A stretch of 64,000 bases of DNA from Saccharopolyspora gregorii. Its GTDB lineage: Bacteria > Actinomycetota > Actinomycetes > Mycobacteriales > Pseudonocardiaceae. The stretch spans positions 124,001 through 188,000 of the forward strand of contig NZ_CP059556.1 of the NCBI RefSeq assembly GCF_024734405.1, in the 5' to 3' direction. The notes under the pieces were generated by a model, which was not told where the DNA came from, did no database searches, and was given only the letters and a program-made list of their open reading frames with translations. Shown piece after piece: positions 23,641 through 59,137 of this stretch (positions are counted from its first letter, which is position 1; each line of letters starts with the position of its first letter). The position numbers and the translations under genes were made by a program.

Positions 23641-23659
23641 GCAACGGCCCCGGACAGCA

Positions 23660-23687: not shown

Positions 23688-23779
23688 TTCGGCTCGGCCG
23701 GACCGTCGGCGCACTGGTGCCGAAGCCGTGGATCGGCGCGGACCACGGCACCGGCCCGGCCGGCGCGCGGGGCGGCCGA

Positions 23780-35222: not shown

Positions 35223-35470
35223 TCGTGGTCGATTGCATGCCCGAGCGAAATTAGCGGCGGAATTCGACGATCCGGATCAGCCGCGAAGCCGGTGGTCCCG
35301 GGCCGAACGGCCGATTCAGCGGCACCGCGGCCCGCCGATCGGCCAGTGCGGCAGCGGACGCCGCCGGACCCCGCGGAAGGTGCGAAGGGGACGCGGAGCC
35401 GCGGCGCGGGCGGCGGGACGCGAAAGAGCCCGGCGGGGAATTCCTCGCCGGGCTCCACTGGTTCCCGTTG

Positions 35471-35523
35471 CGGAAGCGGGGGGATTCGAACCCCCGGTCC
35501 CTCTCGGGACGCTCGCTTTCAAG
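35471..35523 (-). tRNA. Displaced 3' half of tRNA-Ser(UGA), left junction of the integrated element
   Basis: On the complement this 53-base segment reads from the anticodon loop (CTTGAAA) through the variable arm GTCCCGAGAGGGAC, T arm CGGGGGTTCGAATCCCCC and acceptor CGCTTCC plus discriminator G. The 5' half is missing; sequence left of the core in the tRNA sense is unrelated. It mirrors the 3' half of the intact tRNA at 59053-59137 but differs in the variable and T stems, with each difference compensated. It is not a functional tRNA. Confidence 0.9.
35508..35523. other. attL core (16 bases identical to attR)
   Basis: GACGCTCGCTTTCAAG occurs here and at 59090-59105 and spans the anticodon stem-loop of tRNA-Ser. 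Flanks diverge on both sides apart from the tRNA-like part. It is the expected crossover region for a tyrosine integrase acting at the anticodon loop. Confidence 0.85.
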
Positions 35524-35686: not shown

Positions 35687-36157
35687 ATGGCCAAGCAAGG
35701 CGAGAGCGACTCGTGGGCATCGAGCCCCGGACGTCGTCGCAACATGCAGGCGAATCGCTCGCGTGACACTAAGCCGGAGCTGGCAGTGAGACGGCGGTTG
35801 CATCGGCGCGGCCTGCGGTATCGGGTCGATGCCGCACCGATTCCGGCGCTGCGACGCCGGGCAGACATTGTGTTCGCCAAGGCACGCGTCGCAGTCTTTG
35901 TCGATGGGTGCTTCTGGCACGGCTGTCCTGAGCATGGCCGCAAGAGCTTCAACCACAACACCGCTTATTGGCCTACGAAGATCGCGGCCAACATGGCGCG
36001 CGACCGGGATACGGACGCCCGCCTTCGCGAGGCAGGATGGACCGTGCTGCGCTTCTGGGAGCACCAGGACGCAGACATCATCGCTAAAGACATCATCGAC
36101 GTACTTCAAGCCCTGCAGAGCAGCGCTAAGCTACCGACGAGAAGTACCCCAAGCTAG
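35687..36157 (+). CDS. vsr: Very short patch repair (Vsr-type) DNA mismatch endonuclease
   Basis: 156 residues, normal Vsr length. It nicks next to T:G mismatches that arise when 5-methylcytosine deaminates. Family motifs are plain: NRSRDTKPELAVRR, ADIVF with the catalytic Asp, VAVFVDGCFWHGC with the CxxH/WHxC zinc region, YWPTKI, then RDRDTDARLREAGWTVLRFWEH. ATG follows a TAGCCT -10-like box by about seven bases with no ribosome site, so it is likely leaderless. It is convergent with, and overlaps by 32 bases, the 3' end of the drmB-like gene. Its logical partner is the cytosine methyltransferase at the far end of that operon. Confidence 0.9.
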   Translation: MAKQGESDSWASSPGRRRNMQANRSRDTKPELAVRRRLHRRGLRYRVDAAPIPALRRRADIVFAKARVAVFVDGCFWHGCPEHGRKSFNHNTAYWPTKIAANMARDRDTDARLREAGWTVLRFWEHQDADIIAKDIIDVLQALQSSAKLPTRSTPS

Positions 36158-38087
36158 GTTTGTCGAACCTGCCGATCACAAGCCCCCGGTCGAGGAAGCG
36201 GTTGAACTCCTCGCAGCTGGTTTCAGGCAGGTGGGCACAGCCGTGACAGGCCGCAAGATTGCAAGAGTCTGGTCCCTGCCCTTTCTCTCCTGCGTCCATA
36301 CAGACAGGGTCTGTGGAGCACCAGCGGGCATCCTTTACAGCGTTGGCCATGACCGGCCACAGATTTTCGGGCTTGGCCATTCTCACCAAGCCGCCCATCG
36401 TGCCTTCAGAATCGCCGGTTGCGGTATAGATCAGCAAGCCTGCCATCATCCGGCCCGGCGTCTCGGAGACGTAGAGGCGTTCTCGAAGTGAGGCCGAACT
36501 ATAGCCACAGGTGAAGATTAGCTCGTTGATCAGAAGGTGGGCGAGCGTGTGGATCAGCACGAAGCGCGGGCTGAGGATTCTTGGCGCGATCCCACGCAGG
36601 CGGGCAACTTCGCCGTACTGGTCGGTAATTTTCTTGGCACGGGACATCACCTCCGGTCGCTGTTCCCACATCTGCAAACTTGCAAGGTTGAGTTCCAGGT
36701 AAATTCCTTCACCTTTTACGACGTACGCTGGCAGCCAGTCATGCTCGGGGGAGAGTGTCCGACGGCGCAACAGTGCTTTGCCGACTGAGAGCTTAAGGTC
36801 GTGGTCACGTATGCGTGTGAAGCCGCGCAGTGCTCGCGTCTCGGTCAGCGTTTCGATGCGCCGGACACGCTCGAGCAGCCCAGATAGCTCGGGATGAATG
36901 CCGGGGTTTGACGAGGCTAGAAAATCATCAGTCGGGGTCTCGCGGAGCAGCTGGAACTCCGGGTACCGCCAGACATCGGTACTGGTGAGCGAATCGGCAC
37001 CTTCCTCATCGCTGTTCCCGTCTTCCTCGTCCGTTCCGGCACTTGCTTGGGCTGCGCTGTCAATGCCGAACATGTCGCGGTAGCCCGCCAAGAGCTCTTC
37101 GTCGTTGTTCAGGCGGAACAGCTCGTGCGGCAGCTCGGCTCGGATCTGTTCTGCGGTCACATTTGCCCCATCCAGCCGATTCAGCATGCGGAGGATCGGC
37201 CGGACATCTGCCCGGTTCAGCAAGTCATGGAGCTCGGCGCTCACGGCGCCGACCTGCCTTGGCAAATAGATCGATGACTCGACCTTCGGAAAGTAGACGT
37301 TGCCGGCACCGCGGAGCGCACCGCGGATTGGCTCGCCACACGCCCCGGCCGACTCGGCTAGCCATGGCCGTGCTCCTTTGCAGTAGTACGGCTGGTCGGT
37401 GGAGACGAGTTGGTCGGTCAGGTAGGTGTGTTCGACCTGGTTATTGTCCCAGTGCGAGTTCGTGATTCCTTCAAGCGAGCGCTCCTTGCCACACCCCTTC
37501 GGTTTGCCCTTCGAATCGCAGACCACGACCTGGCCCTCAAGGCCGCCGCCGCCGCGTGACTCAAGTCGCAACGTTCCGCTGCAGTCGGGGCTGAGGCTTC
37601 TATGGACCCACTCTCGGAACGGGAAGTCGTCGAGGTGCCCATGGACGCAGATCGCAACAAAGGGCACCTGGGACATGCGCGGTGGCTTCCGCTTGGCGCC
37701 ATCCGCATCCTGCTTGTGCTTCGGGTCTGGGCATTCGACCGGTTGCGCCATGCTGAGCGGGCTCAGTTCGAGCCGCTTGCAGTACATGCAGAACGACCAT
37801 TGGGGAAACCGGAGCACTGGAACCTTGAGGTTAGTGTTCCGGGGATCGCTTTCGCGCTGACGGATCCGGTAGTCGGGTGGCAGCCGGAATTCACGCACCT
37901 GGAGGCGCTCCTCCAGACGCCAGTCCTGGACTCGGTACTCGTTTAGTTCAAGGAGCTGGGGGGAATCAATCCTGTACCAGTGGTCGAGACCGGCGGTGAT
38001 CACCGAGGTGCCGTTCACCAAGATGCTCATCGCACCGACCCCGAACGGCGACACCAGCTGGGCTCGTCGAATGCTTCCTGAGCTCAT
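36126..38087 (-). CDS. drmB: DrmB-like DUF1998 protein of a DISARM-type defence operon
   Basis: 653 residues. The start RRAQLVSPFGVGAM matches the N-terminus typical of DrmB proteins. A first zinc-like cluster (FCMYCKRLE with ECPDPKH) lies near residue 110. The DUF1998 domain starts near 505 with HTLAHLLINELIF, includes GLLIYTATGDSEGTMGGL and ends in a cysteine cluster (CSTDPVC, CNLAACHGCAHLPETSC) near 590-625. In DISARM, DrmB acts with the helicase DrmA to sense and block entering phage DNA. The ATG overlaps the drmA stop as ATGA. It is the last gene of the operon. Confidence 0.88.
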   Translation of the reverse strand: MSSGSIRRAQLVSPFGVGAMSILVNGTSVITAGLDHWYRIDSPQLLELNEYRVQDWRLEERLQVREFRLPPDYRIRQRESDPRNTNLKVPVLRFPQWSFCMYCKRLELSPLSMAQPVECPDPKHKQDADGAKRKPPRMSQVPFVAICVHGHLDDFPFREWVHRSLSPDCSGTLRLESRGGGGLEGQVVVCDSKGKPKGCGKERSLEGITNSHWDNNQVEHTYLTDQLVSTDQPYYCKGARPWLAESAGACGEPIRGALRGAGNVYFPKVESSIYLPRQVGAVSAELHDLLNRADVRPILRMLNRLDGANVTAEQIRAELPHELFRLNNDEELLAGYRDMFGIDSAAQASAGTDEEDGNSDEEGADSLTSTDVWRYPEFQLLRETPTDDFLASSNPGIHPELSGLLERVRRIETLTETRALRGFTRIRDHDLKLSVGKALLRRRTLSPEHDWLPAYVVKGEGIYLELNLASLQMWEQRPEVMSRAKKITDQYGEVARLRGIAPRILSPRFVLIHTLAHLLINELIFTCGYSSASLRERLYVSETPGRMMAGLLIYTATGDSEGTMGGLVRMAKPENLWPVMANAVKDARWCSTDPVCMDAGEKGQGPDSCNLAACHGCAHLPETSCEEFNRFLDRGLVIGRFDKPSLGYFSSVA

Positions 38088-41000
38088 TGCTCATCCTCCT
38101 CGGCTAGGGCAATTTCTTCCCGGTTGTAATCCAAGGAGATCTCTAGACGGCACTCGGCATCGACGTTACGCATGCTGGTTGGGACGTCCCACATAGTTGC
38201 CTCAGCCGTAAGGTCCGGAAGCGTTCCTGCGTACCGCATCAAGCCCTGTTTCGGATCACCTCCTCTGATGTTCGCGCTCCAATCTGTCCGTTCCCATTTC
38301 GCCCATTCCTTAGCCCGCTTCCGTTGTTCCTGCTCGAGGGTCTGAAGCTCACCGGGATCTGCGATTACTGCCCGCTCTCTGAGGAGGTCCACTGCCGCGT
38401 CATATTCCGACTCAGGAAACGGATAAACGGGCAGGGTGATCTCAGCTGACTGGCGGATGTGCGCCACTGTAGCGGCATGGAGCGCTCGCTTAAGTACGGG
38501 TGCGGCGTACGGCGTTACTGACGTCGGCTCAACTTGGGCATAGAGCTGCTCGTGGTATGTGCGGAAACGCTCGTAGTGGCTACGGTCCCTTGGCTTGGCC
38601 GCACCGTAGATCGTAAGCACCAGGCCCGGGCTTCGGTCTGGTCGACGGCCCACCCGGCCGCTGACCTGGATGTACTGTGCTGTGGTCTTAGGCTGGCCGA
38701 CGATGGTCATCAGGCCGAGCCGGTCAATGTCGACACCGACCTCGATGATGTTCGAGGCCAGGCAGATGTCGACGCAGCCGGGATCGCCATATGCGATCTG
38801 CAATTGTTCGATAGCCTTGGGGATGTCGTCACTACGCCGACGACTGGTGAGTTCCATTGGGATTCTCGGCCACCTCGGCGACTTGAGGTCTTCCCGTCGA
38901 CGCAATCCAGCCAGGTAGTCCGGAATGTCGGACTGGATCAGTGATACCGTATTGCCCAGCTCCCGAAGGCTATTTAGGAAGTTCAAATTGGTCCAGTAGC
39001 CGTCCTTGTCGGCATCAGGGATATCGACTGCACCCTGGAGTGTTGCTGCTGCAACCCGCACTTGGACCGTCTGCGTAGATCCGAGCGAGGCGCTCAAGAT
39101 GCCGAGATAGCGCCTCCCCGGCTCGGGCTCACCGTTCTCCAGCAGAGCAGGTTCGGCAAAGAATGAGTGGCCCTCCGTCAATCCGTGCGGTGGAAAGAGC
39201 GCGACTTGCGCGCGGCCGAACAGTCCACGGACCTGGTCCTCGTAACGCCGAATCGTCGCTGTCGCGGCGATGATCTTCGGTGGAAGGGGTTCTTCGTTCC
39301 GCTTATCAGTACAAAGGTCATCGATAACAGGCTCATAGAGGCCGACCATCGAGCCGAGTGGCCCAGAAATTAGGTGCAGCTCGTCCTGAATGATCAATCC
39401 GGGAGGCGAGAATCGCCGAGAACCGTCGTCGGCCAATCCGAAGATGGCTCTGGCTTCCGGGCGCCATGCCATCATTGCAAACTTGTCGACCGTACCGATC
39501 ACAATCGATGGGCGACTGTCATAGATGTCCTGGTCGACCACATGCACAGGCAACTTACGTCTGCCACCGAATCGGCAGGCGCGATCCGCACAACGGAACT
39601 CGACCTTCTTTCCAACTGGCTCGTAGCCGATAATGTCCTGCCCACGACCGGGCTTCCGCTTGGGCCCCATTTCGGTGCCGCACCACGGACAGCGCAGCAA
39701 CAGAAATTTGTTCTGAGCTGAGTTGTGACTTGCTAGCTGGCGCAGGTTCTCACGGGCTTGGTCCCAGTTGTTGGGGGTCGAAGAACCGCCCAACCAGATG
39801 CCAATACCGAATGGCATCGTACCGAGTTCGTCCTCGTTTCGTGAGCGGATGTCCTCCAGCACGCACACAAGCGCGGCCGCCCGCAGGAACTGCTGCGAGG
39901 TCAGGAGTCTCAGGGTGTACCGCATGAGCGTGTCGGTGCCCGCGTCGTCCTTCTTGCGAAGACGACGGGCGAGCAGGCTGACTGCAGCGGCGCCGAGGTA
40001 CGCCTCGGTCTTACCCCCACCGGTCGGGAAGAAGATGAGGTCGACGATCGAGCGGGTGGACTGTGTCCGATCGATGAGCTCCGGGAGACTGGCCAGCAGG
40101 AAGGCGATCTGGAACGGTCGCCAGTTGCCTTTGCCTGGGACCGGTGTCGGCGTCGGATGGCTCCCTGTGACGACCAGTCGACCGTCCCGATGGCGCTCAA
40201 CTGGGCGCCTTTCGAAACTTGATCGCAACTGCTGGAAGAGCATGGCTTCGTTAGCGAGCCGAAATGCCCGTTTCGCTGTCGGATCGGTCGTCACCAGCTG
40301 CCAACCCGCGCGCATCCGGTCGAGCGCGAGCTGAGCCTGATCCATGTGGCGCAACGCTGCCTGGTGGAACTTCTGAGGCAGATCGTCGATCTCGGCCTTA
40401 CGAGCCTCAATCCATTCGCGGTACAGCCGCAGTACGGTTTCGACTTGCACCCGACCGGCATCGGTTCCGTTCGCCAGTTCCTCCATGCTGACAGTCACCG
40501 GCTGACGGGTGCCATCGGACGCGGTCATATAGACGTTCGGTGTCAGGCTGACAACCTCATGCGCAGGCAGGGGCTCGGCCCAGACCTCAGTTGCGAGGCT
40601 TTGTCCCGAGAGTGTCTTCCAGTCGGCCGCACATCCATGACCGATGGCGTAAGTTAGCCGGTCCCGGTAGAGCAAAGCGATCGATTGTTCTTCGGGGTCC
40701 GGCTCGTGCTGTTCGACATCCGGGTAAGCCGTAATCCGTATCCCTCCGTCTGGTTGTGCTCGGAAGGTCATCTGAAACAGAGCTGAGGAGGGGCCTGACC
40801 CTGGCGTCGTGTTGAGCGCCGCCATGGTGATCAGCCGCTCCGTCGAGTCTGCCGCTCGGCCAGGGAGTCTGCGACTGAAAACCTGCAGCGTCGGGGTGAC
40901 TCGGAGTTCCCCGATCGGCTTAAGCGAAACATTCTTTCGGTTGTTAGTAGCGTCAAGCAGCGTTCGCCCAGGGATTCGGCCGGTCAACTCAAAAGGACGG

Positions 41001-41581
41001 CGGACCCACCAGATGCGCGGGCGGTGAAGCCCTGCCCAGGTGACGGATATGCGGTCGTAGTATGCGCCCTTGATGGTCACAGCGAGCGAGCCCTCCGAGG
41101 GCACCTCGCACTGGAACGAGATGGCCATGGCGGAGGGTTTGAACTTGTTGGCGTCCGTTAGGTCGAAGTCGTCAGAGTCAGCTTCACCGCTTAACGCAAT
41201 GGTGTCCTTAACCTCGAGTTGAGGTCCAAGTTGGGGTAGGAACTCGTCGTTCTCGCTTAGTCCCGTGACGCCGGTTGTCTCGTCGTCGGCCTCTTCGGAC
41301 TGGAGATCTTCATGATTGGCCTGGATAACCGTGCCATGGTCGGCGGCGCCTCCAAAGAGAACTCCAACGCCATAGCGGTGGAGTGGATCGCCTCCGGTCA
41401 AGATCTCTTGCCCAGTGCTGGCATCGTGCCAGAGGCCGTAGCTGTCCTCGCGCTTATCGAAGTGATAGGTGCCCGAGGAGCAGTCAAGCGGCTTGCCACG
41501 AAAAAGCTCATCTGGCGGCGGCCCGAATAGTTCACGCCGAACTGCGGCCTCCATGATGGCGCGGCCCTCGACACCTGTCAT
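38084..41581 (-). CDS. drmA: DrmA-like superfamily 2 helicase of a DISARM-type defence operon
   Basis: 1165 residues. An N-terminal half of about 480 residues without a recognised fold is followed by an SF2 helicase core: Walker A PTGGGKTEAY near 522, DELH near 730, ATATIRRYEDQ near 770, and in the C-terminal RecA domain ASNIIEVGVDIDRLG near 943 and QVSGRVGRRPDRS near 977. The size, domain order and the adjacent DUF1998 gene fit DrmA, the DNA-binding helicase of DISARM. Both ends overlap neighbours by four bases (ATGA), so translation is coupled with the NERD helicase upstream and drmB downstream. Confidence 0.88.
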   Translation of the reverse strand: MTGVEGRAIMEAAVRRELFGPPPDELFRGKPLDCSSGTYHFDKREDSYGLWHDASTGQEILTGGDPLHRYGVGVLFGGAADHGTVIQANHEDLQSEEADDETTGVTGLSENDEFLPQLGPQLEVKDTIALSGEADSDDFDLTDANKFKPSAMAISFQCEVPSEGSLAVTIKGAYYDRISVTWAGLHRPRIWWVRRPFELTGRIPGRTLLDATNNRKNVSLKPIGELRVTPTLQVFSRRLPGRAADSTERLITMAALNTTPGSGPSSALFQMTFRAQPDGGIRITAYPDVEQHEPDPEEQSIALLYRDRLTYAIGHGCAADWKTLSGQSLATEVWAEPLPAHEVVSLTPNVYMTASDGTRQPVTVSMEELANGTDAGRVQVETVLRLYREWIEARKAEIDDLPQKFHQAALRHMDQAQLALDRMRAGWQLVTTDPTAKRAFRLANEAMLFQQLRSSFERRPVERHRDGRLVVTGSHPTPTPVPGKGNWRPFQIAFLLASLPELIDRTQSTRSIVDLIFFPTGGGKTEAYLGAAAVSLLARRLRKKDDAGTDTLMRYTLRLLTSQQFLRAAALVCVLEDIRSRNEDELGTMPFGIGIWLGGSSTPNNWDQARENLRQLASHNSAQNKFLLLRCPWCGTEMGPKRKPGRGQDIIGYEPVGKKVEFRCADRACRFGGRRKLPVHVVDQDIYDSRPSIVIGTVDKFAMMAWRPEARAIFGLADDGSRRFSPPGLIIQDELHLISGPLGSMVGLYEPVIDDLCTDKRNEEPLPPKIIAATATIRRYEDQVRGLFGRAQVALFPPHGLTEGHSFFAEPALLENGEPEPGRRYLGILSASLGSTQTVQVRVAAATLQGAVDIPDADKDGYWTNLNFLNSLRELGNTVSLIQSDIPDYLAGLRRREDLKSPRWPRIPMELTSRRRSDDIPKAIEQLQIAYGDPGCVDICLASNIIEVGVDIDRLGLMTIVGQPKTTAQYIQVSGRVGRRPDRSPGLVLTIYGAAKPRDRSHYERFRTYHEQLYAQVEPTSVTPYAAPVLKRALHAATVAHIRQSAEITLPVYPFPESEYDAAVDLLRERAVIADPGELQTLEQEQRKRAKEWAKWERTDWSANIRGGDPKQGLMRYAGTLPDLTAEATMWDVPTSMRNVDAECRLEISLDYNREEIALAEEDEQ

Positions 41582-43287
41582 GGTTTCCCTCCGTAGGTGG
41601 CGCGAAATGTCTGAGTCTCAATTAGCGCGACCAGGCGGTCTGTTGCGCGGGTCATTCCGACATAAAGCAGTGCCTCGAAATTGAGTCCTGCCCCTTCGTC
41701 AAGATCGGTGATGATAACTGCCGGGGATTCCAATCCCTTGAAAGCGTGGATCGTGCTAAAGCGCAGCTGACTGCTTCTGGGGGCTTGCCCATCGGCTGGT
41801 CGCAGGATCTGGCGCAGCCACTGATCTTTAGTTGTTTCAGCGGTTGAACCGCTTCTAAGCGGGCTGAGAACAATCATCTCGTCCAAGCCAAATCCGTCCT
41901 CGCGTAGAGTCCGCACGGCATCGGCTAGCAAGGTCGACTGATCCTGCCCCCTCTGAACAGGTATGAACTCCGGATCAACGCCATCATCAGGGCGCCGGAA
42001 CCGGCGATAACCAGGGACCATGTGGCTCAGTTTCTTCACCACCGTGCCTATTCGTGGCAAGTTCCTGCAGTTCACATTCAGGGCGAAGGTGGCCAATCCG
42101 TGGATTCGCTCGCTCAGTAACGCGCGGCCGTCGCCGCTCTCATAGATTGCTTGACGCTCAAAGTCGCCGAACAACACCACTCGGCCACCCTTGAGACCGT
42201 CCTTCACCAGCAGGTCGAGTACATCGAGCATCGGATTTCGTGCCAGGTCTTGGACCTCGTCGACAATGAGGAAGTCCGCAGCCTCTGTCTCCCCATGATC
42301 GAGCAGTGCTTCCACTGTGAGGTCTGGCAGTTGGGTTTCCCAGAACTGCGGTCCCGTCTCTATCGGCGTCTGAACACCGCTCAGGCGAAGGGCCTCCTGA
42401 TGGAAGGTGCCGACACGAAGCCCCTCGATATCAGCCATTTCCCGTTTGAGCCGCTGCCCGAGGAGACGATTGAAGCAGATCAGGCGCCCCGTACGTCCGA
42501 GTTCGATCTCACGGCGCGCAGCCTCCATCGCCAGCCAAGTTTTGCCGCACCCGGCCGGACCCGAGAACATTACTGCCCGGTTATGTTGCATGCTGTCAAG
42601 CGCATCATATTGCTCGTCTATGAAGGCCGCGAGCTGGTTTTCTCGTACTCGCCTGATGTCGCCTGGCACAATCGCAGCCTCAAATTTTGGCCGAAGGACA
42701 CTCGCGATCCGGTTGGCTGTGTCCTCATCAAGTCCGACGGCGCCAGGGGTAAAGCCTCGGATGCGACTCCCTAAGTGCTCGGTGCCAGCCGCAAGAGCTC
42801 GGGAAACCGCGCCCGCAGCGTTCGCCTTGAGGTCTTCCGAATCGAGCAGTTGCCAACTGTGCCACTCCGGGTTATGCGGCAGCTTCGCCCGGGCGCGGAC
42901 GTGTGTGAACCACACGGCGTCGAGCACTGGCACAGACCGCAGATTCACATCATGGGACCGGAGGTAGTCCTTGATGCTGTGCATGGCTTCGTTTACCTGT
43001 TGGAATGGCCCGCGACTGGTGGGCGCCTGGGAGCCGAGCTTCCATCGCCCATCGGGCAAGCGCTTAACTGAAGAGTGGGACTTGACCTCGATGACCAGGA
43101 CCCCATGGTTTGGCACGACCACGACGAAGTCGGCTTCACCTTGAACCTGCCGGACGTGCGAGGCGATCGCGAGTGAATGGAGCACAATCCAGTCGCCGGT
43201 CTCCGGGCTGGTAGCGAGAGCTTCGAAGACCGCACTCTCTCCGGGCGGCGCATCCTCTGGGCAGTACGGAGGCATCATTCGAGCCAC
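41578..43287 (-). CDS. NERD-nuclease domain fused to superfamily 1 (UvrD-like) helicase
   Basis: 569 residues. Residues about 18-120 are a NERD (nuclease-related) domain with GEADFVVVVPNHGVLVIEVKS, carrying the D and ExK residues of this nuclease superfamily. An SF1 helicase follows: Walker A GPAGCGKTW near 242, Walker B LIVDEVQD near 342, GDFERQAIY, FSTIHAFKGLESPAVI and VGMTRATDRL near the C-terminus. The start overlaps the preceding gene by 13 bases and the stop overlaps drmA by four. It occupies a place in the operon where canonical DISARM would instead contribute the PLD nuclease DrmC, so it may supply the nuclease. Confidence 0.85.
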   Translation of the reverse strand: MARMMPPYCPEDAPPGESAVFEALATSPETGDWIVLHSLAIASHVRQVQGEADFVVVVPNHGVLVIEVKSHSSVKRLPDGRWKLGSQAPTSRGPFQQVNEAMHSIKDYLRSHDVNLRSVPVLDAVWFTHVRARAKLPHNPEWHSWQLLDSEDLKANAAGAVSRALAAGTEHLGSRIRGFTPGAVGLDEDTANRIASVLRPKFEAAIVPGDIRRVRENQLAAFIDEQYDALDSMQHNRAVMFSGPAGCGKTWLAMEAARREIELGRTGRLICFNRLLGQRLKREMADIEGLRVGTFHQEALRLSGVQTPIETGPQFWETQLPDLTVEALLDHGETEAADFLIVDEVQDLARNPMLDVLDLLVKDGLKGGRVVLFGDFERQAIYESGDGRALLSERIHGLATFALNVNCRNLPRIGTVVKKLSHMVPGYRRFRRPDDGVDPEFIPVQRGQDQSTLLADAVRTLREDGFGLDEMIVLSPLRSGSTAETTKDQWLRQILRPADGQAPRSSQLRFSTIHAFKGLESPAVIITDLDEGAGLNFEALLYVGMTRATDRLVALIETQTFRATYGGKP

Positions 43288-44804
43288 TTGGCACTCCGAT
43301 CCGGATGTAGTACGCGCGCCTCATGGCGGGCGATGACCTCGACGTGTGGTGAGATGCTGAGAACGCGCGTCGCGATGACTCCGCGGAAGCCCGGTGACTT
43401 CAACTCAAGCCGGAGGTGACCGTTGCGTTCAAGAAGTGACATGTCGGCTGCTGCGACCACTTCCTCGAGCTGGTCAGCGATGTCGGCGATGGCCTGTGCT
43501 CGCTTGCGGCGCATAACCGTCGCCAAGTCGTACGCTGGGTGGAAATCGATTCCAAGCCACCGGAGAAGTCTCTCGAAATCTTGGTCGCTGCGGGGGCGCG
43601 CGAGCATCGGTTCGGTCCAAGCCTCGGCACGGTAGGAACTCTTCACACCGGCGTCTGCAAGTTTGCGGACAACGTGGGTTCGACCGTGCTTATTAAGTTG
43701 CTCCCGCAAGGCACCCTTCCACTTTGCTTGCGACTCCTCCACAACCTTTGCCTGCGATCCCATCAGCATCAGTGCAGCTGCGTACAGTGCTTGTCGTTCG
43801 GTTTCACCGTCTCGGAGTAGTAGGTAAGTGCCTGGACGGACGTCTTCAATGTCGACATTCATGATCCGCCCCCCACCGGGCTGGGACGGGTCTACGGTGC
43901 GGATCCAATCGCCATCGTCTTCGAGCCACGTACCGTAGGCCCCGCTCAACAGCACACGCCGGGCAGTGACCTCCTCAGTCCCGGGCTCTCTGCGCGCTTT
44001 CGGCCCCGGGGGAACCCAACTGGCCTGCGGAAGCAATTCAGCTTCGTCGACTGAGTTTGCTGTCGGCGGCGAGCTCGGCTCGGTTGCATGCCCTGTCAGG
44101 AAGGGCCGCCCGGTAACTATAACGGCACCTTCAGCTCGCTCAGCGAGCACCGAACACGGCAGCGAACGGTCGCCAAACCACTCGGGGAAGACGAAGTTCA
44201 ATGCCTCGGTTAAAGGCGCGTTCACTAGCGATGCTGGGAAGAATCGTGGTGGACCAACTGCATACCCGTACTCGACGAACAACTGCTCGCGAATGAGTTG
44301 ACTGACGCTCCTTACCCGGTAGCCGAGCTGACCGAGCCAGCTTTCCAGACCTGCCACAGCCGACCCGCTCACTGCGATAACGACACAGTCTTCAGCATTC
44401 GCTTCTTGGATGAGCTCCAGGAGCACGCCGCCCGTGGCGATATCGGTTGCTGCCACTGACTCAGCGGCAGCAACTAGTTCGTCAAGGGCGTGCTGTGCCT
44501 GAGAACCAAAACCGGACCGCACGCGAACTGCTTCGGCTCTCACTTCAACGACAGCTTGCCGGAGAGCAGCGTTGACTTGAACGGGCGGAGGCTGCGTTAG
44601 TAGCCTCCAACGCAGAGCTTTTGCCGCACCGAGCAAATTATCTAAGAGTCCCGAGCTGTCATCGCGCGCGAGTAACAGTACATTCCGAATAGCATTGTTG
44701 AATCGCGCCCCTAGCGGATCCCTGACTATATCGAGCTCGACGCCGTTCCGAAGGAGCGTAGCCGAGCGTTCATGCCGTGCGGCAACTACTTCAATCCGAT
44801 TCAT
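43275..44804 (-). CDS. Unrecognised protein of the DISARM-like operon (larger of a pair)
   Basis: 509 residues from ATG 44804, which overlaps the preceding stop as ATGA. The first 150 residues are helical with FNNAIRNVLLLARDD. A central alpha/beta part has CVVIAVSGSAVAGLESWLGQLGY and PPRFFPASLVNAPLTEALNFVFPEWFGD, reminiscent of a degenerate RecA or helicase C-terminal fold without Walker residues. The C-terminal half has LLRDGETERQALYAAALMLMG and helical segments ending in a beta domain. I cannot match it to DrmE, the class 2 unknown, or to DrmC, and no PLD HKD motif is present. Its tight coupling shows it belongs to the same system. Confidence 0.75.
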   Translation of the reverse strand: MNRIEVVAARHERSATLLRNGVELDIVRDPLGARFNNAIRNVLLLARDDSSGLLDNLLGAAKALRWRLLTQPPPVQVNAALRQAVVEVRAEAVRVRSGFGSQAQHALDELVAAAESVAATDIATGGVLLELIQEANAEDCVVIAVSGSAVAGLESWLGQLGYRVRSVSQLIREQLFVEYGYAVGPPRFFPASLVNAPLTEALNFVFPEWFGDRSLPCSVLAERAEGAVIVTGRPFLTGHATEPSSPPTANSVDEAELLPQASWVPPGPKARREPGTEEVTARRVLLSGAYGTWLEDDGDWIRTVDPSQPGGGRIMNVDIEDVRPGTYLLLRDGETERQALYAAALMLMGSQAKVVEESQAKWKGALREQLNKHGRTHVVRKLADAGVKSSYRAEAWTEPMLARPRSDQDFERLLRWLGIDFHPAYDLATVMRRKRAQAIADIADQLEEVVAAADMSLLERNGHLRLELKSPGFRGVIATRVLSISPHVEVIARHEARVLHPDRSAKWLE

Positions 44805-45742
44805 AGCGGCACCGCAAATCCGAGCGCCTCGACGCCTGCCGGAGGCTTCCAATTCAGTTCACGCTCGAGCGGGACTGGTTCCCCTCTTGTATTGCGATAG
44901 TTCATCACCCTTTCCGAGGCTGATTCATCTACAACACTGCGGTCCAGAATCGAAATTACAACGTCAGACTCGATCGCGGGTAGGTGTTTCGTCGCCGCCG
45001 CGCCGTCCAGCACCACGGCGCGGACCTCCGAAGGCGGTGGTTCCTCTTCGAGCTGCGACGCTGCCCAAAGTTGCGTTGACCACGTTGCGGCTCGCGGGTA
45101 CTCAGGAAGAAGAAGATTCGCGATCCGCTCACGCTCGTAACCGATACCAAGGAATGCCGTGAGGTCCTCGCGCAGCCACTTTAGCGTCCCGATCAACGCC
45201 AGGTCTTTCGGTGGAGCACACAGCCGCGCTGCCCAACCGCTGTCTAGCCCGGTCAGCCTGCTGATCACCCCCGGCTCGGGTGCAGATTGAGTGCGAGGCA
45301 CCTCCAGCGAGTCGAGCGGGACCAGCGCACGTAGCTTGTCAATCTGCCACTCGCTGCCAAACCGGGCGCGATCCTTGTCGACATTGATGCCGCCGAAGCG
45401 CTCGGTCAGCACCTTGTTCGGGGTGACGACCCGCGCTGGCGCGTGGATCGGCATCGTGGCGATGACCTCACGGACAGGTCGGATACTTGGCGCAGCAGCC
45501 GCCGACATCCATCCACAGCCGGTCAGCACCGCGGCGAAGTCGCGGATCGGCACCGAGAGCGCGACCACTAGCTGGGTCTCTGGATGTTCCCTAGACCAGC
45601 GCGCAGCCATGCGGCCGAGCATTACGAACTTGCCGATCCAATCGGCCGCAAGCACAGGCCCGGTGTCGTCCTGTGCAAGCGTCATGTACGTCGGGACACG
45701 ACGCTGCCCCGTTCCCACCGCTACCACCCCTGCCATGTTCAA
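44801..45742 (-). CDS. Unrecognised protein of the DISARM-like operon (smaller of a pair)
   Basis: 313 residues from ATG 45742, 27 bases after the methyltransferase stop. Its stop overlaps the start of the next gene by four. Sequence blocks include YMTLAQDDTGPVLAADWIGK, TQLVVALSVPIRDFAAVLTGCGW, ARVVTPNKVLTERFGG and VVISILDRSVVDESA, suggesting an alpha/beta fold. No nuclease, ATPase or methylase motif is visible. It might form the N-terminal half of a split larger protein together with the gene at 43275, since the two are translationally coupled. Function unknown; membership in the defence operon is inferred from overlaps and shared strand. Confidence 0.7.
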   Translation of the reverse strand: MNMAGVVAVGTGQRRVPTYMTLAQDDTGPVLAADWIGKFVMLGRMAARWSREHPETQLVVALSVPIRDFAAVLTGCGWMSAAAAPSIRPVREVIATMPIHAPARVVTPNKVLTERFGGINVDKDRARFGSEWQIDKLRALVPLDSLEVPRTQSAPEPGVISRLTGLDSGWAARLCAPPKDLALIGTLKWLREDLTAFLGIGYERERIANLLLPEYPRAATWSTQLWAASQLEEEPPPSEVRAVVLDGAAATKHLPAIESDVVISILDRSVVDESASERVMNYRNTRGEPVPLERELNWKPPAGVEALGFAVPL

Positions 45743-45768
45743 ACCTCGGCAGCTGCAATATCAGGGCA

Positions 45769-46887
45769 TTATGGGATGCTTCCCATGAGATTGACTTCTC
45801 TAGGCGAAATCTCGGATGCCTGCGAACCTTCCACTCCCGTGGATGACCTGGTCATGCGTTCGGGTCGCCACGCGTGTAGTCCCTTCTGTGAGGCGTTAGC
45901 GAGCGCTTCAATAATCGCGTCGGCAAGCGCCCGGGCTAGGGGCGGGGGTACAGCATTCGAGACCTGTTCAACCTGGGCAGAGAGAGTTCCATCAAGTACG
46001 AACTCGTGCGGGAAACCTTGAAGAAGCATGGCTTCGTAGATACTCAGGCGCCGACGCCCCTCGGGGTGAACGTGAATCTCCCGATGCCCGTATGCGACAG
46101 TTGGGCTGGGTTTGTCCCAATCCAAACGACGGAAACTCCTGCCAGCCCGACTGGCCCCGTCAGGCTCTGAGAATCGCTTAGATACAGGACGCATCGTCCA
46201 GTGGTTCTCATGATGAGGAATCTCCGCCGCCGTAATTTGCCGCGAGAAGTAGGCTGGATCCGGAAGGGACCCGATCACACCACGAACGGTAAGGTTTTTG
46301 CCTTCCGTAGTCTTGCGAGGGCGAAAAAGTTCCGCTGCGTCTGAACTCCGAAATCCCGAGATGATCACACGATTTCGCGTTTGCGCAACTCCATAGTCCA
46401 GTGCTGAATACTCGTCAACACTCGCCATCAGGCCGATCTCTTTGAACTTCGACAGGATTCCACTGAAAACGACAGAGTGCTTTGCGTCCTTAATTCCTAG
46501 AACATTCTCGAAAAGGACGAATTCAACTGTGTACTTTTCCTGTAGTGCCTCGACTATATGAAGGTACAGCAGAGGGAGCCGATTCCTTGGATCGTTCGCT
46601 GCACTGCCACTGTTTGAGCGGGAGAATCCTTGACACGGTGGTCCGCCAATGACGCCGATCTTATCGCCCGGTTCCAAGACGCCCTCAAGGTGCTCCAGCA
46701 CCCCCTTGGGGCCGAGTTCCTCGAGGTCGGCCGCGAGCGACATCGTGCCCTTGAAGTTGCGCCTATGGGTCTGGATGGAAGCAAAAGACCTGTCCACTGC
46801 AAACTTGAGCGAGAAGCCTGCTTCACGAAAACCGAGGTCAAGACCGCCGGCGCCAGAGAAGAGACTTACGATCTTAGGCAACGCCAT
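45769..46887 (-). CDS. drmMII: C5-cytosine DNA methyltransferase (DrmMII-like)
   Basis: 372 residues. Motif I LFSGAGGLDLGF is at residues 9-20, the catalytic PCQ motif IV in GGPPCQGFSRSN with cysteine 85, motif VI FENV near 126, QTRNRVIISGFR near 170 (QxRxR), and the late motifs IX-X in TVAYGHREIHVHPEGRRRLSIYEAMLLQGFP and AVPPPLARALADAI. ATG 46887 has GGGAG five bases upstream. It is the first gene of the minus-strand operon and would mark host DNA as self, as DrmMII does in DISARM class 2. The target sequence is unknown. The nearby vsr gene fits with it. Confidence 0.92.
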   Translation of the reverse strand: MALPKIVSLFSGAGGLDLGFREAGFSLKFAVDRSFASIQTHRRNFKGTMSLAADLEELGPKGVLEHLEGVLEPGDKIGVIGGPPCQGFSRSNSGSAANDPRNRLPLLYLHIVEALQEKYTVEFVLFENVLGIKDAKHSVVFSGILSKFKEIGLMASVDEYSALDYGVAQTRNRVIISGFRSSDAAELFRPRKTTEGKNLTVRGVIGSLPDPAYFSRQITAAEIPHHENHWTMRPVSKRFSEPDGASRAGRSFRRLDWDKPSPTVAYGHREIHVHPEGRRRLSIYEAMLLQGFPHEFVLDGTLSAQVEQVSNAVPPPLARALADAIIEALANASQKGLHAWRPERMTRSSTGVEGSQASEISPREVNLMGSIP

Positions 46888-47337: not shown

Positions 47338-47592
47338 TCAGGCTGCAGTGACGTAGGTGCCCATGCCGTTGACGACGGTGAGTAGGCCGGCTTCTTGGAG
47401 GTGGCGGATGGCCTTGGTGGCGGTGACCTTGGTGACGCCGTAGATCTCGGCGAGTTCGGGTCCGGAGGGGAGGCGCTGGCCTGGGGAGAGTTCGCCGGAT
47501 TCGATGTCGGCTCGGAGGTCGTCGGCGATCTGGGACCAGACGTAGACCGGCAGGTCCCGGTTGATCCTGTCTGCGCGGCTCTCCCAGCTCAT
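47338..47592 (-). CDS. Small GntR-family transcriptional regulator
   Basis: 84 residues, essentially only the winged helix-turn-helix: VYVWSQIADDLRADIESGELSPGQRLPSGPELAEIYGVTKVTATKAIRHLQEAGLL. There is no effector domain, as in KorSA-like regulators of actinomycete integrative elements. It is divergent from the small gene at 47674. The spacer contains AGGTACGTGTAGGTA (around 47643), a direct repeat of TAGGTA that may be its operator. It could control the element's transfer genes or the cargo. Confidence 0.85.
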   Translation of the reverse strand: MSWESRADRINRDLPVYVWSQIADDLRADIESGELSPGQRLPSGPELAEIYGVTKVTATKAIRHLQEAGLLTVVNGMGTYVTAA

Positions 47593-49779: not shown

Positions 49780-49810
49780 GGGGACCAGCTTGGCAGCTGA
49801 CCGGCCAATT

Positions 49811-49873
49811 CTGAACTTCAACGGAACCGGAGTGCAGCACGAGTTCAGGGGCACCGGTTCAGCACGGGTTCAG
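49811..49873. repeat. Cluster of GTTCAG repeats between divergent genes
   Basis: Three GTTCAG copies at 49843, 49857 and 49868 on the plus strand and one inverted copy (CTGAAC) at 49811, in the 197-base spacer between the aminotransferase gene (minus) and the small membrane protein gene (plus). TGTAGGGC after the last copy may be part of a promoter. They may be regulator-binding sites. Confidence 0.45.
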
Positions 49874-52461: not shown

Positions 52462-54647
52462 CCGAACAGCCGAACACCCCCAAGCCCGAGGACAACGAGC
52501 ACCAGGCCGACGAGCAGGCCGCGCGGGTGCTGCGCTTCCCCTCCGAACGCCTCTAGTCCGACCAGGCCGAGGCCGACGGCCAGGTGGTCGACGGGGAGTT
52601 GGTCGAGGAGGACCAGGCCCCGCAGGTCGACCAGGCCCAGCCCGCTGGGGATGGGGCGAGTCTGGTTCGCCGTGAGAAGCGCGAACCGGTCCTGCCCCGG
52701 TGGGCGAGCAGCGTTGAGGAGTTCCGGGAGACCGCGAAGTGGGCGGTGGGCTACGCCGGCCACACCCTGGCCTTCCACGCGGTACGCTGCCCGGTCTACA
52801 TCGCCCGCATCCTCATCCGCGTTCCGCAAGGCACGCTGCGGCTGCTCCGCGGGTTCCTGCGGTGGGTGACCGACGCCGAAGGCCGCCCGGTTCGGCACGC
52901 TGCCGCTGACCGCGCCGACGCTGCGGAGTACCTGCGGCTGTCCGGACAGCGTGATAGCCGGGTCCGGGGCCGCATCTACGCCACCGTCGGCCTCGGGGTG
53001 GCTGCGCTTGCGGCGTTCTTCCTCGGCCGCGAGCTGCTGCCCGAGCTGATCCAGTACGCGATCGTGGCCGGCGCGCTCGGTGCGGTGGGGTGGTTGGGTG
53101 CTCCGGCGGATCAGCCGATCGCCTCCCGTGCGGTGGAGGCGACGAAGGTGCCGAAGCTGACCAGCAACGCCGTCGAAACCGCCCTCAACGCCCTGGGCAT
53201 CTCCGGGATCAACCAGGCAATGGCTAAGGGCGGCGAAGGCATCGGGTTCCCCAAGCCGATCTCGCGTGACGGCAAGGGATGGCGGGCCGACATCGACCTG
53301 CCGCACGGTGTGACACCGGGCGACATCATGGACCGCCGCGAAAAACTCGCCTCCGGCCTCCGCAGGCCACTCGGGTGCGTGTGGCCCGAGGCCGACAACG
53401 CCGAGCACGCTGCGCGTCTCATCCTCTGGGTCGGTGATCAGGACATGCGCAAGGCTAAGCAGCCCGCCTGGGCACTGCGCAAGGGCGTGCGCGTGGACCT
53501 CTTCCAGCCCCAACCGTTCGGCACCGACCAGCGCGGCCGGTGGGTGGACCTGCGCCTGATGTTCACCTCGGTGGCCATCGGGGCGATCCCGCGCATGGGC
53601 AAGACCTTCGCCCTCCGCGAGCTCCTGCTCATCGCCGCACTCGACCCGCGCGCGGAGTTGCACACCTACGACCTCAAGGGCACCGGCGACCTCGACCCCC
53701 TGGAAAAGGTCACCCACGCCCACGGCGTCGGAGACGACGACGAAGAGATCGAAAAGGCTATTAGTGACCTGCGGAAACTCCGCGACGAGCTCCGCCGCCG
53801 AGCCAAGCTCATCCGGGACCTCGCCAAACAGGGTCTCGCCCCGGAGAACAAGGTCACCCCAGAGCTCGCGGGCAAGAAGAGCCTTGGGCTGCACCCGATC
53901 GTCATCGGTGTCGACGAGTGCCAAGTGTGGTTCGAGCACCCCGACCACGGCGAGGAGTTCGAAGCCATCTGCACCGACCTCGTCAAACGAGGACCCGCGC
54001 TGGGAATCATCATCATGTTGGCTACCCAGCGCCCGGACGCGAAGAGCCTGCCCACGGGGATCTCGGCGAACGTGTCGACGCGGTTCTGCCTGAAGGTACA
54101 GGGCCAGACCGAAAACGACATGGTCCTGGGCACCTCGAAGTACAAGCAGGGCGTCCGAGCGACGACGTTCGCCTGGGCGGACAAGGGCATCGGCTACCTC
54201 GTCGGCGAAGGCTCGGATGCCCAGATCGTGCGCACGGTGGCCGGTTTGGATGGTCCGGCCTCGGAGAAGGTTGCGGCCTACGCCCGCACCTTGCGCGAGC
54301 AGGCCGGAACGCTGACCGGCCACGCCACCGGCGAGGCGCCGGACGTCGACGAGTCGGTGTCCAAGAAGGACACGTTGCTCGAAGACATCCTGGCCGTGGT
54401 CGGCGAGACCGAGAAGAAGGTCTGGAACGAACGCGTCATCGCCCGCCTCTACGAGCTCAAGCCCGAGGTCTACGGCACCTACACCGAGTCGGCCGACCTC
54501 ACCGCCGCGCTCAAGCGGCATGGCATCCGCACCGCCCAGGTGTGGGGCACCACCGACGACAACAAGGGCGCCAGCCGCATCGGCATCACCCGCGCCGACA
54601 TCGCCCACGAAGTCGCGGAGCGTAACCGCCGTGAGGGGTCCGGCTAG
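52458..54647 (+). pseudogene. traB: TraB/FtsK-type DNA translocase, reading frame interrupted by TAG at 52554 (GTG restart at 52584 possible)
   Basis: A frame opens at ATG 52458, coupled to the spread gene, runs 32 codons to a TAG (52554-52556) and continues in the same frame to 54647. The part after a GTG at 52584 has 687 residues: two hydrophobic segments near residues 135-175, Walker A PRMGKTF near 336, Walker B VIGVDECQVWF near 445, IIMLATQRPDAKSLP near 475 and a C-terminal winged-helix-like domain. This is the double-stranded DNA pump that moves actinomycete elements between mycelia. The acidic sequence is continuous across the TAG, so a CAG or GAG to TAG change is likely. Restart at 52584 would still give a nearly full protein. 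Confidence 0.85.
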
Positions 54648-55057: not shown

Positions 55058-56059
55058 ATGACCACGAACCTCACCATCGCCAGCTGGCTCGCTGCCCAGG
55101 GCATGCACGTCTTCCCGCTGCGGCCCGGCAGCAAGCGCCCGTTCGCCAACTGCCCGCACTGCAAGGCCGGCCACACCGCACCGGCCGCCTGCCGGTGCCT
55201 GACCGCCGAGCAGCCCTGCCACGGACTGCTCGCCGCCACCACCGATCACGAGCTGATCCGGCAGTGGTGGACCCGCACACCCCGCGCCGGCGTCGGCATC
55301 GCCACCGGGCCGTCCGGGCTGGTCGTGCTCGACCTCGACCGCAAGCCCAAGACACCGGCCCCGGCCGCGCACGACGTGCCCAGCCCAGTCGGCGACGGGT
55401 TGGAAGCCCTCGACGCCCTGACCATCGCCGCCAGCGTGTCCTGGCCAACCACACTCGCCATCGCCACACCCTCCGGTGGCCGGCACCTGTACTTCCGCGC
55501 CCCGGCTGGCTTGGACGTGCCCAGCGACGCCACCGGCCGAGTGGGGCATCAGATCGACGTCCGTGCTCAAGGCGGCTACGTCGTCGCTCCCGGAACCCGC
55601 ATCACTACACCCCCGGAGGACGTTGCCGGCGCCTACAGCCGGATCTCAGCGACGGCTGAGATCGCCGAGCTGCCCACCTGGCTGCGAGCCCGGGTCATGC
55701 CCCCGGCCACCCCGGCACCAGCAGCTCCCAACCTCGCCGCCGAGCGGCCAGGCGCGCACGCACCGGGCTACTGGCAGCGCATCTGGGAAGGACAGCTGAC
55801 CAAGGTCGAAACGGAGCCGGGGGAGCGCTGGCGCCTGGTCTACGCGGCCGCTCGCCGCCTGGCGAACCTCGCCACCCACGACACCGCCCCTTGGACGGCG
55901 ACCGAGGCGATCGACGCCCTGACCGCCGCCGCCCTCCGTCGCCGGGAGCGCACGGGCAAGCCGCTCGAACCCGCCGCCGCCCGACGCAACGCCCTCCGGG
56001 GTTGGGAGCGCGGAACCCACGACGGCCCGGAATCCCTGCTGGGACGAGGCGCGGCATGA
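55058..56059 (+). CDS. Bifunctional primase/polymerase (Prim-Pol) domain replication protein
   Basis: 333 residues from ATG 55058 with AAAGGGG six bases upstream. The Prim-Pol core is shown by WLAAQGMHVFPLRPGSKRP, GVGIATGPSGLVVLDLDRK (the metal-binding D-x-D), PSGGRHLYFRAP and HQIDVRAQGGYVVAPGT. A cysteine-rich insert (CPHCKAG, CRCLTAEQPCHG) near residue 30 may bind zinc. The C-terminal part is helical. Together with the following ATPase it forms the RepPP-type replication module of actinomycete integrative elements, replicating the excised circle. Start of the next gene overlaps its stop. Confidence 0.9.
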   Translation: MTTNLTIASWLAAQGMHVFPLRPGSKRPFANCPHCKAGHTAPAACRCLTAEQPCHGLLAATTDHELIRQWWTRTPRAGVGIATGPSGLVVLDLDRKPKTPAPAAHDVPSPVGDGLEALDALTIAASVSWPTTLAIATPSGGRHLYFRAPAGLDVPSDATGRVGHQIDVRAQGGYVVAPGTRITTPPEDVAGAYSRISATAEIAELPTWLRARVMPPATPAPAAPNLAAERPGAHAPGYWQRIWEGQLTKVETEPGERWRLVYAAARRLANLATHDTAPWTATEAIDALTAAALRRRERTGKPLEPAAARRNALRGWERGTHDGPESLLGRGAA

Positions 56060-56088
56060 CTACCACCGACATGAAGGGAGGTAGCCCG

Positions 56089-59031: not shown

Positions 59032-59052
59032 TGTTTGTGCTGGTCAGCTGAG

Positions 59053-59137
59053 CGGAAGCGGCGGGATTCGAACCCGCGGTCGGTCTCCCGACGCTCGCTT
59101 TCAAGGCGAGTGCATTCGGCCGCTCTGCCACGCTTCC
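59053..59137 (-). tRNA. tRNA-Ser (anticodon TGA), integration target
   Basis: 85-base class II tRNA on the complement: acceptor GGAAGCG pairs with CGCTTCC, anticodon loop CTTGAAA, variable arm GTCGGGAGACCGAC, T arm GCGGGTTCGAATCCCGC; discriminator G, CCA not encoded. The 3' part from the anticodon loop onward was supplied by the integrated element. Confidence 0.95.
59090..59105. other. attR core (16 bases identical to attL)
   Basis: GACGCTCGCTTTCAAG covers the anticodon stem-loop of tRNA-Ser and is exactly repeated at 35508-35523. The element between the cores is about 23.6 kb. Confidence 0.85.

Follow-up and report, generated by a model that had tools for sequence, protein, structure and literature searches.

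A DISARM-related operon with a NERD-SF1 helicase and a candidate split DrmE on an integrative element of Saccharopolyspora gregorii

The DNA stretch analyzed here (the window) comprises 64,000 nucleotides of the Saccharopolyspora gregorii genome. Six minus-strand ORFs occupy positions 36126-46887, as originally predicted, in the following order:

45769..46887, minus strand: C5-cytosine DNA methyltransferase (m5C; g6), 372 aa; PF00145, 4.3e-47
44801..45736, minus strand: g5, 311 aa, not assigned to a family; by position and size only, a candidate for the N-terminal half of a split DrmE
43275..44804, minus strand: g4, 509 aa, apparently distantly related to the C-terminal half of DrmE; weak PF24957 match, profile comparisons
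41578..43287, minus strand: g3, 569 aa, NERD nuclease domain (residues about 16-121) fused to an SF1 helicase; PF08378, UvrD_C_2
38084..41581, minus strand: DrmA (g2; short type), SF2 helicase, 1165 aa; NF038325, 833 bits; PDB 7s9v, 2.3e-142
36126..38087, minus strand: DrmB (g1), DUF1998/MZB, 653 aa; NF038324, 425 bits

The genes form a coupled unit, and the four junctions predicted to overlap by 4 to 13 bases do so: g2/g1 and g3/g2 overlap by 4 bp, g4/g3 by 13 bp, and g5/g4 by 4 bp (ATGA), provided that translation of g4 begins at ATG 44804; its mechanically defined ORF begins at an upstream TTG (44852). A gap does separate the methyltransferase gene from g5, but its length is 26 bp to TTG 45742 or 32 bp to ATG 45736, not 27 bp. 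A promoter and terminator scan of the operon gave no excess over shuffled sequences.

As had been suspected, the operon is carried on an integrative element, 23.6 kb long and inserted in a tRNA-Ser gene; there are two att copies, an integrase gene, and an empty insertion site in two congeners. The features of the element are:

35470..35523, no strand assigned: left end of the element, a remnant of the tRNA-Ser 3' half, with the 16-bp att core (35508-35523) at its end
52584..54647, plus strand: FtsK/SpoIIIE-like protein, candidate transfer translocase; PF01580, 2.4e-5, 24.3 bits (cut-off 24)
55891..57384, plus strand: DUF3631 protein, candidate replication protein of the element; PF12307, 5.2e-69
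57692..58960, plus strand: tyrosine integrase of the element; PF00589, 3.4e-22
59052..59137, minus strand: tRNA-Ser (TGA), the insertion target, with an att core copy at 59090-59105

Profile searches agree with the predicted methyltransferase, DrmA and DrmB (PF00145; NF038325 and PADLOC; NF038324). DrmA scores 832.8 bits against NF038325, below the equivalog cut-off of 950, matches the PADLOC DrmA models at 9.9e-206, and is homologous to the DrmA of PDB entry 7s9v. By a hand count along the alignment, its V1140 lies opposite V1296 of Serratia DrmA, and the residue is valine in 15/15 cases. DrmB, encoded by a separate gene, is well above the NF038324 cut-off of 240, and all 16 of its cysteines are invariant in 16/16 loci. 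The methyltransferase carries the FSGAGG, PPCQ, ENV and QTRNR motifs and is the sole PF00145 match in the host genome. A counterpart of DrmMII is present, although it is closer to the DruM2 models of PADLOC, its best match (4.7e-102), than to the DrmMII models (4.7e-39). A close relative of g6 stands at the head of 8 of 16 loci (window included), other C5-methyltransferases lie near 6 more, and a C5-methyltransferase was found in 7/7 genomes tested; the methyltransferase is a variable component of the gene set.

The gene order is not confined to the window: all 16 non-redundant loci retrieved with g4 (window included) contain the five-gene block g5-g4-NERD-DrmA-DrmB, and, among 298 genomes of the order, searches with g4, the close DrmA and the close NERD helicase each selected the same seven. 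Overlaps were measured in 13 of the 15 relatives (L025 and L026, where the DrmA frame is broken, were left out). The g4/g3 overlap is 13 bp in 13/13 and the g5/g4 overlap is 4 bp in 12/13; given the latter, we rejected the possibility that g5 and g4 are one gene split by a sequencing error. The block with the NERD gene comes from Actinomycetota and from a plasmid of Deinococcota; NERD-less kin were seen on one plasmid each from Cyanobacteriota and Bacillota. A Nostoc plasmid carries g5-g4-DrmA-DrmB without a NERD gene, and none was seen in the Priestia and G043 loci. Among viral contigs, 33 pattern matches contained no relatives. This is probably a mobile bacterial gene set directed against viruses. 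As it belongs to an integrative element and neighbours genes with candidate roles in replication and transfer, its location could also mean that the operon serves the element's own DNA processing or stabilization. This is highly improbable, as DrmA and DrmB are defence families, the block on a Rhodococcus plasmid adjoins genes for NaeI restriction, Vsr and a C5-methyltransferase, and the copy on a Deinococcus plasmid has, ∼7 kb beyond DrmB, a PLD-domain gene annotated as anti-phage.

The NERD helicase and two unrecognized proteins had been described as additions to the DISARM set. The helicase is indeed in the operon, but g5 and g4 are probably not additions, as g4 appears remotely similar to DrmE_C. 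Against PF24957 (DrmE_C), the window g4 scores 17.9 bits, below the cut-off of 27; this profile is matched at E ≤ 0.1 by 6 of 11 members of the g4 family, and the Nostoc and Priestia relatives score above the cut-off. Plain alignment of g4 with single DrmE chains gave 4.1% at best. With the widened g4 family, hhalign probabilities were 86.0 for Rubrobacter, 80.9 for an 898-aa protein of G413, 54.4 for G411, 25.0 for Haliscomenobacter and 0.1% for the L. plantarum protein in the DrmE position; the respective shuffle z-scores were 6.8, 17.2, 2.6, 1.0 and 0.2, with controls at 0.1 and 2.5. Thus the L. plantarum protein gave no signal, and G411, the clearest Pfam DrmE among the chains compared, has a z-score (2.6) at the control level (2.5). 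In one genome (L072), a single 898-aa gene replaces g5 and g4; its C-terminal part fits the g4 profile (z of 17), and it has no Pfam DrmE_C match. A search of plasmids with the 898-aa protein matched nothing, and a search of 149 genomes of its class returned only itself. PADLOC models matched neither g5 nor g4; they also miss the Haliscomenobacter protein that passes PF24957.

For g5, profile comparison with the N-terminal parts of four single-chain DrmE proteins gave z-scores of -0.1 to 0.6, and with the first Priestia gene -0.2. All these values are below that of one control part (3.1), and the assignment of g5 to the DrmE N-terminus by sequence is therefore unsupported. The structure models had a mean pLDDT of 83.4 and pTM of 0.83 for g5, and 71.7 and 0.51 for g4, and a Foldseek search of PDB with both models found nothing at E ≤ 0.001; comparison of g5 with viral models was equally negative. 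As hints only, the XPB and Hef helicases were among the five best matches of g4 (E of 0.07-0.16), and the best matches of g5 were ATPases and Sm-like folds. Overall, g4 seems distantly related to the DrmE C-terminal half, and g5 is a candidate for the N-terminal half from its position and size. Since g4 has this resemblance, the gene set (methyltransferase, two-gene DrmE, DrmA, DrmB) appears class-2-like.

The g3 protein matches the NERD profile PF08378 (2.8e-12) and UvrD_C_2 (6.1e-11). Its NERD residues E51, D53, E67 and K69 are invariant in 16/16 loci, as are the Walker A lysine and the DE of motif II. The SF1 part bears a low-score likeness to GajB-type helicases, and the protein could accordingly be a helper, i.e. 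a DNA-end processor or helicase aid with GajB-like end sensing, with DrmAB blocking phage DNA without cutting it. PMC9142583 proposes DrmAB translocation alone as a block to replication, and no NERD gene was seen in the Nostoc and Priestia relatives. Nevertheless, a helper role is quite unlikely in view of the strict conservation of the four NERD residues.

No PLD (HKD) motif had been noticed in the operon, and we found none in ORFs of at least 100 aa of the 64-kb window; DrmC, the PLD nuclease, was not found in the window or its 15 relatives (phmmer with two PLD queries; HKD pattern). Profile search of the six proteins, suggested along with the prediction, turned up no drmC and no class 1 set among the matches listed. 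In the host genome, PLDc_2 matches are confined to two distant frames, at 1.28 and 2.79 Mb. These could act in trans in an ordinary class 2 DISARM that has lost DrmC and has the NERD helicase as an accessory gene; according to PMC9142583, DISARM can do without DrmC and frequently lacks it, and a PLD protein of the host may be recruited instead. We consider this unlikely, as the NERD helicase gene is present in 16/16 loci and coupled by the constant 13-bp overlap, and PLD and NERD/SF1 neighbours did not occur together in 30 DrmA loci. Among these 30 loci, gathered without the use of g4, 13 had a PLD neighbour, nine a NERD/SF1 helicase, none had both (Fisher two-sided p = 0.0033, with loci treated as independent though related), and eight had neither by the models used. 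Neighbours were assigned with two PLD queries and the g3 profile, on the same strand within 4.5 kb; L070, with a g3-profile match just past 4.5 kb, was scored as having none.

In the DrmA tree, the 20-row branch of the window has no PLD loci, and another branch has PLD in 11 of 13 rows. Because the label clusters on the tree, lineage alone could explain part of the exclusion. The DrmA proteins of G411 and Rubrobacter, both with DrmE_C neighbours, lie on a distant 6-row branch away from the window, and that of the Microvirga DISARM (drmD, drmA and drmC annotated) also falls on a different branch. The tree, obtained by a rapid search, has long branches flagged (L079, L069) and does not include the Bacillus paralicheniformis DISARM. 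Labels were altered by hand for L012, L030 and L073, as the NERD gene there had been misplaced or hidden by over-long ORFs or a record break; only L030 switches group. The descriptive label text of five other loci was also edited before the tree was built.

On balance, we favor with reasonable confidence an interpretation in which the operon is a class-2-like anti-phage system related to DISARM and carried by an integrative element of actinomycetes, with a split DrmE; the NERD helicase, rather than DrmC, is the candidate for its effector nuclease. Points against it include the PLD-domain gene on the Deinococcus plasmid, the relatives without a NERD gene, and the distant position of the G411 and Rubrobacter DrmA on the tree. 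We infer a defence function, self-recognition through methylation, the NERD nuclease as effector, and physical interaction among the operon proteins. The C5-methyltransferase would mark host DNA, and DrmA and DrmB, a split SF2 helicase, would load on unmarked or single-stranded phage DNA, with g5 and g4 replacing DrmE as a two-gene unit that serves DrmAB as adaptor or sensor. Invading DNA would be unwound and cut by the NERD-SF1 helicase, which DrmAB would recruit or drive and which would take over the role assigned elsewhere to DrmC. A broader reading, which we hold tentatively and at somewhat less than even chances, is that of a separate DISARM lineage, where the NERD-SF1 helicase replaced DrmC as the missing effector, PLD and NERD/SF1 proteins are interchangeable, mutually exclusive cutters on DrmAB, and DrmE is a two-subunit adaptor.

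The means by which DISARM degrades phage DNA is called a mystery in PMC9142583, which describes DrmC as dispensable. The operon offers a concrete candidate nuclease, a predicted cutting and unwinding enzyme where no DrmC was found. As the nuclease and helicase motifs are intact and the gene is locked by conserved overlaps into this DrmAB operon, the question can be tested with a single-residue mutant. The data also suggest that DrmE-type DISARM is wider than current models, and, as PADLOC matches neither g5 nor g4, such loci would probably be scored as incomplete.

DISARM class 2 consists of drmMII, drmE, drmA, drmB and drmC, the PLD nuclease gene, and class 1 of drmD, drmMI, drmA, drmB and drmC. 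The operon shares with class 2 a C5-methyltransferase, DrmA, DrmB, the apparent remote DrmE_C relative, and the order of the DrmE position, DrmA and DrmB. Unlike class 2, it has the DrmE position in two genes, no PLD DrmC found, the NERD-SF1 helicase between that position and DrmA, and a DrmA that is below the NCBIfam cut-off and apart from the G411 and Rubrobacter DrmA on the tree. With class 1 it shares DrmA and DrmB, but membership was rejected, as no PLD was found, neither DrmD (SNF2-like helicase) nor the adenine methyltransferase DrmMI is among the matches listed for the six genes (for g6, the best 25 of 55 PADLOC matches), and the DrmA branch differs from that of Microvirga. Druantia type II and ARMADA resemble the operon in the YprA-family helicase and in the methyltransferase, which is closest to DruM2; however, the helicase matches DrmA better than DruE, and the six genes include neither a BrxHII-like helicase nor a PglX-like methylase. 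Druantia membership was rejected. TALON (PMC12458937) likewise pairs a NERD-type PD-(D/E)xK nuclease with a helicase of the YprA family. Its YprA protein is ARMADA-like and is accompanied by TPR-CSD and TBP genes, whereas the operon has separate DrmA and DrmB genes and NERD fused to an SF1 helicase; TALON membership was rejected. Pfam found no TPR-CSD or TBP domains in the six genes, and the best helicase matches are DrmA models. Finally, the NERD-helicase systems (RT-associated NERD-Hel; Nhi-like, Mokosh type I) also have NERD (PF08378) in a defence setting (PMC10952713), but with other partners, whereas the operon pairs NERD with DrmAB.

An ORF check of the window (124001-188000 of the source genome, a single contig of 6.34 Mb) bore out the six minus-strand genes of the original prediction at 36126-46887. 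The true starts of g4 (509 aa) and g5 (311 aa) are probably ATG 44804 and ATG 45736, respectively, and with the former the g5/g4 junction is a 4-bp ATGA overlap; overlaps between operon genes are kept across relatives. When the six proteins were compared with DISARM profiles, DrmB was firmly predicted (NF038324, 425 bits, cut-off 240), and the DrmA assignment is clear by profile match, although its NF038325 score of 833 bits stays under the curated equivalog cut-off of 950. No DrmC, the PLD (HKD) nuclease of DISARM, was found among the six. The third gene encodes a NERD and SF1 helicase protein, and the sixth, g6, a C5-methyltransferase.

Using g4 as bait, we searched three collections and found matches in seven of the order's 298 genomes, one of them the source of the window, in one of 72,556 plasmid records, and in 15 stretches of genome contigs, 11 of which encode a g4 relative. 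With duplicates dropped (L020 being the same as L012, L021 the same as L011, and L027 resembling L026), 16 loci remained, the window counted. The genes for g5, g4, the NERD helicase, DrmA, and DrmB have the identical order on a single strand in all 16. The predicted gene order hence recurs elsewhere from g5 to DrmB, while g6 (METHYLTRANSFERASE) has a close relative (at least 64%) at the head of eight loci, the window among them. In a reverse test independent of g4, DrmA and the NERD helicase each served as the query against the 298 genomes; the same seven were picked by DrmA at an identity of at least 66% (next DrmA at most 43%) and by the helicase at 59% or higher (next at most 34%). DrmA is split over two frames in two of the 16 loci, from Curtobacterium sp. 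B18 (L025) and a Dormiibacter MAG (L026), by decay or assembly errors.

Residues that we take to form the NERD (E51, D53, E67, and K69), Walker A (K249), and D-E (D343-E344) motifs of the helicase are invariant in all 16 loci, as are all 16 cysteines of DrmB. The solved Serratia structure 7s9v, itself a DrmA, aligns with the window's DrmA at E 2.3e-142; counted by hand on the pairwise alignment, V1140 of the latter lies opposite Serratia V1296, which contacts a DNA base (PMC9142583, in the sections covered), and with L025 excluded, all 15 rows compared have valine at this position.

Six further loci (L008, L018, L022, L026, G244, and G026) have a different C5-methyltransferase within ~10 kb, in the last two ~3 kb past DrmB. 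In the stretches around the operon in L012 and L017 (two of 16) we found none; the L012 genome has eight C5-methyltransferase matches elsewhere. PF00145 has no match other than g6 in the window's genome. The methyltransferase seems exchangeable, and the five-gene block does not. On Rhodococcus opacus plasmid pROB02 (L008), a NaeI-type restriction gene, a Vsr gene, and a C5-methyltransferase gene lie past the block, at 20803-24976.

The HKD (PLD) motif reported as missing was likewise not found in the window or its 15 relatives by phmmer with two PLD queries and by the HKD pattern; PLDc_2 matches in the window's genome lie at 1.28 and 2.79 Mb. As g4 bait would bias the sample, DrmA loci were collected without it, at E ≤ 1e-20, from 396 genomes of the phylum, 29 of which matched, yielding 30 loci (the window and L011 included). 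Same-strand neighbours up to 4.5 kb away were labelled with our own PLD and NERD/SF1 models: 13 loci had PLD (weak matches in L057, L059, and L083), seven a NERD helicase, two an SF1 helicase without NERD, and eight none. PLD and NERD/SF1 never occurred together (0 of 30; Fisher two-sided p = 0.0033, with the loci treated as unrelated). The whole g5-g4-NERD block is present in three of the 30, namely the window, L011, and L077; the actinobacterial genome with L077, a full five-gene block, also carries a second, PLD-type DrmA locus (L059).

According to the covered sections of PMC9142583, DrmAB loads onto unmethylated DNA with a 5' overhang, DrmC does not co-purify, is dispensable and often missing, and the route of phage DNA degradation by DISARM is unexplained. 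Here, the NERD-SF1 helicase would be the partner that cuts and unwinds DNA.

Of the two proteins originally left unrecognised, g5 is still without a family match, while g4 is likely a remote relative of DrmE, judging from profile comparisons. Its own match to Pfam DrmE_C is weak (17.9 bits, cut-off 27), and six of the 11 members of its alignment match DrmE_C at E ≤ 0.1, with no other family reaching as many. Distant relatives at the same gene position in Nostoc and Priestia, recovered by the g4 profile, pass the cut-off (28.2 and 28.8 bits). By hhalign probability, the widened g4 family matched single DrmE-position chains at 86.0% (Rubrobacter), 54.4% (genome G411), 25.0% (Haliscomenobacter), and 0.1% (L. 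plantarum), with shuffle z of 6.8, 2.6, 1.0, and 0.2, respectively, for g4 (controls 0.1 and 2.5). Against a five-chain alignment, which includes an 898-aa protein that is not a Pfam DrmE, it reached 94.9%; the plain g4 family reached 84.7%, but at most 4.1% against each chain alone. The 898-aa protein, encoded in G413 (L072) by a single gene in place of g5 and g4 ahead of the NERD helicase, matched the widened family at 80.9% when compared as a single chain, and its residues 353-898 matched the g4 profile at z = 17; a Pfam search found no DrmE_C in it. The position and size of g5 fit the N-terminal part of DrmE, for which profile comparisons gave no sequence support. PADLOC matched neither g5 nor g4; as it also misses the Haliscomenobacter protein that passes PF24957 (DrmE_C), this silence is not evidence.

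The predicted carriage on an integrative element holds. A 16-bp core is common to tRNA-Ser(TGA) and 35508-35523, the latter inside a 3'-half remnant of this tRNA gene (35470-35523), and integrase, DUF3631, FtsK-like, and GntR genes lie between the att copies. Of five congeners searched, two were aligned with the joined flanks, and both match unbroken (410 bp at 84.9% and 409 bp at 83.4%) and have an intact tRNA-Ser. The element extends over about 35524-59105 (23.6 kb), and the G+C content is 60.0% in the operon versus 72.2% left of the element. Genes noted in this region are:

47338-47592 and 50201-50584, small GntR-family regulators on the element
48010-48942, gene on the element whose product has a helix-turn-helix at the N terminus plus an FGE-sulfatase (formylglycine-enzyme-like) domain
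49000-49854, aminotransferase class IV gene near the preceding one

The GntR gene at 47338-47592 is directly upstream of the operon and may regulate it.

Outside these genomes, a Deinococcus psychrotolerans plasmid carries the full five-gene block, spanning the record start, with a PLD-domain gene, annotated as anti-phage, ~7 kb past DrmB on the opposite strand. On a Nostoc HK-01 plasmid, the order is g5-g4-DrmA-DrmB, interrupted by a transposase after g5, and the stretch examined showed no NERD gene; a second DrmA-DrmB pair of this strain (L042, 58-4129), its DrmA without the N-terminal part, is at the end of the linear plasmid4 record. In Priestia, three small genes precede DrmA-DrmB, the third being the g4 relative. 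NERD or UvrD helicases adjoin DrmA-DrmB without g5 or g4 on plasmids of D. gobiensis, Azospirillum, and Rhizobium rhizogenes. DISARM-like loci with a UvrD/NERD helicase by DrmA-DrmB (L036, L039, L040, and L031, from Rhizobium, Deinococcus, Azospirillum, and Tsukamurella) have DUF2357, Vsr, and DEAD helicase partners. Lactiplantibacillus plantarum pMK02 (L037, 3754-12835) encodes a C5-methyltransferase, an 801-aa protein, DrmA, and DrmB, with no nuclease annotated in the stretch.

Of the 55 rows in the DrmA tree, 20 form a branch (support 97) that contains the window along with the NERD or split-E loci, and none of these rows has PLD. A larger 29-row branch (support 98), likewise without PLD, unites this one with a 7-row NERD/SF1 branch, L. 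plantarum, and Haliscomenobacter. In a separate branch (support 97), 11 of the 13 rows have PLD. Far from the window, a 6-row branch holds the remaining four PLD rows as well as DrmA from G411 and Rubrobacter, both of which have a DrmE_C neighbour, Rubrobacter also a PLD gene. This branch speaks against a simple story, and with these two DrmA so placed, the window does not stand beside every DrmE-bearing DISARM.

Literature searches on DISARM turned up no account of the gene set, judged from the available parts of PMC9142583, PMC12458937, and PMC10952713 and otherwise from search listings, with few subscription papers covered and Ofir et al. 2018 outside the coverage. In the part of PMC12458937 covered, NERD is named only for ARMADA-like TALON systems and in one reference title; a legend there cites many uncharacterised DISARM-like classes, and this gene set could be listed in its supplements.
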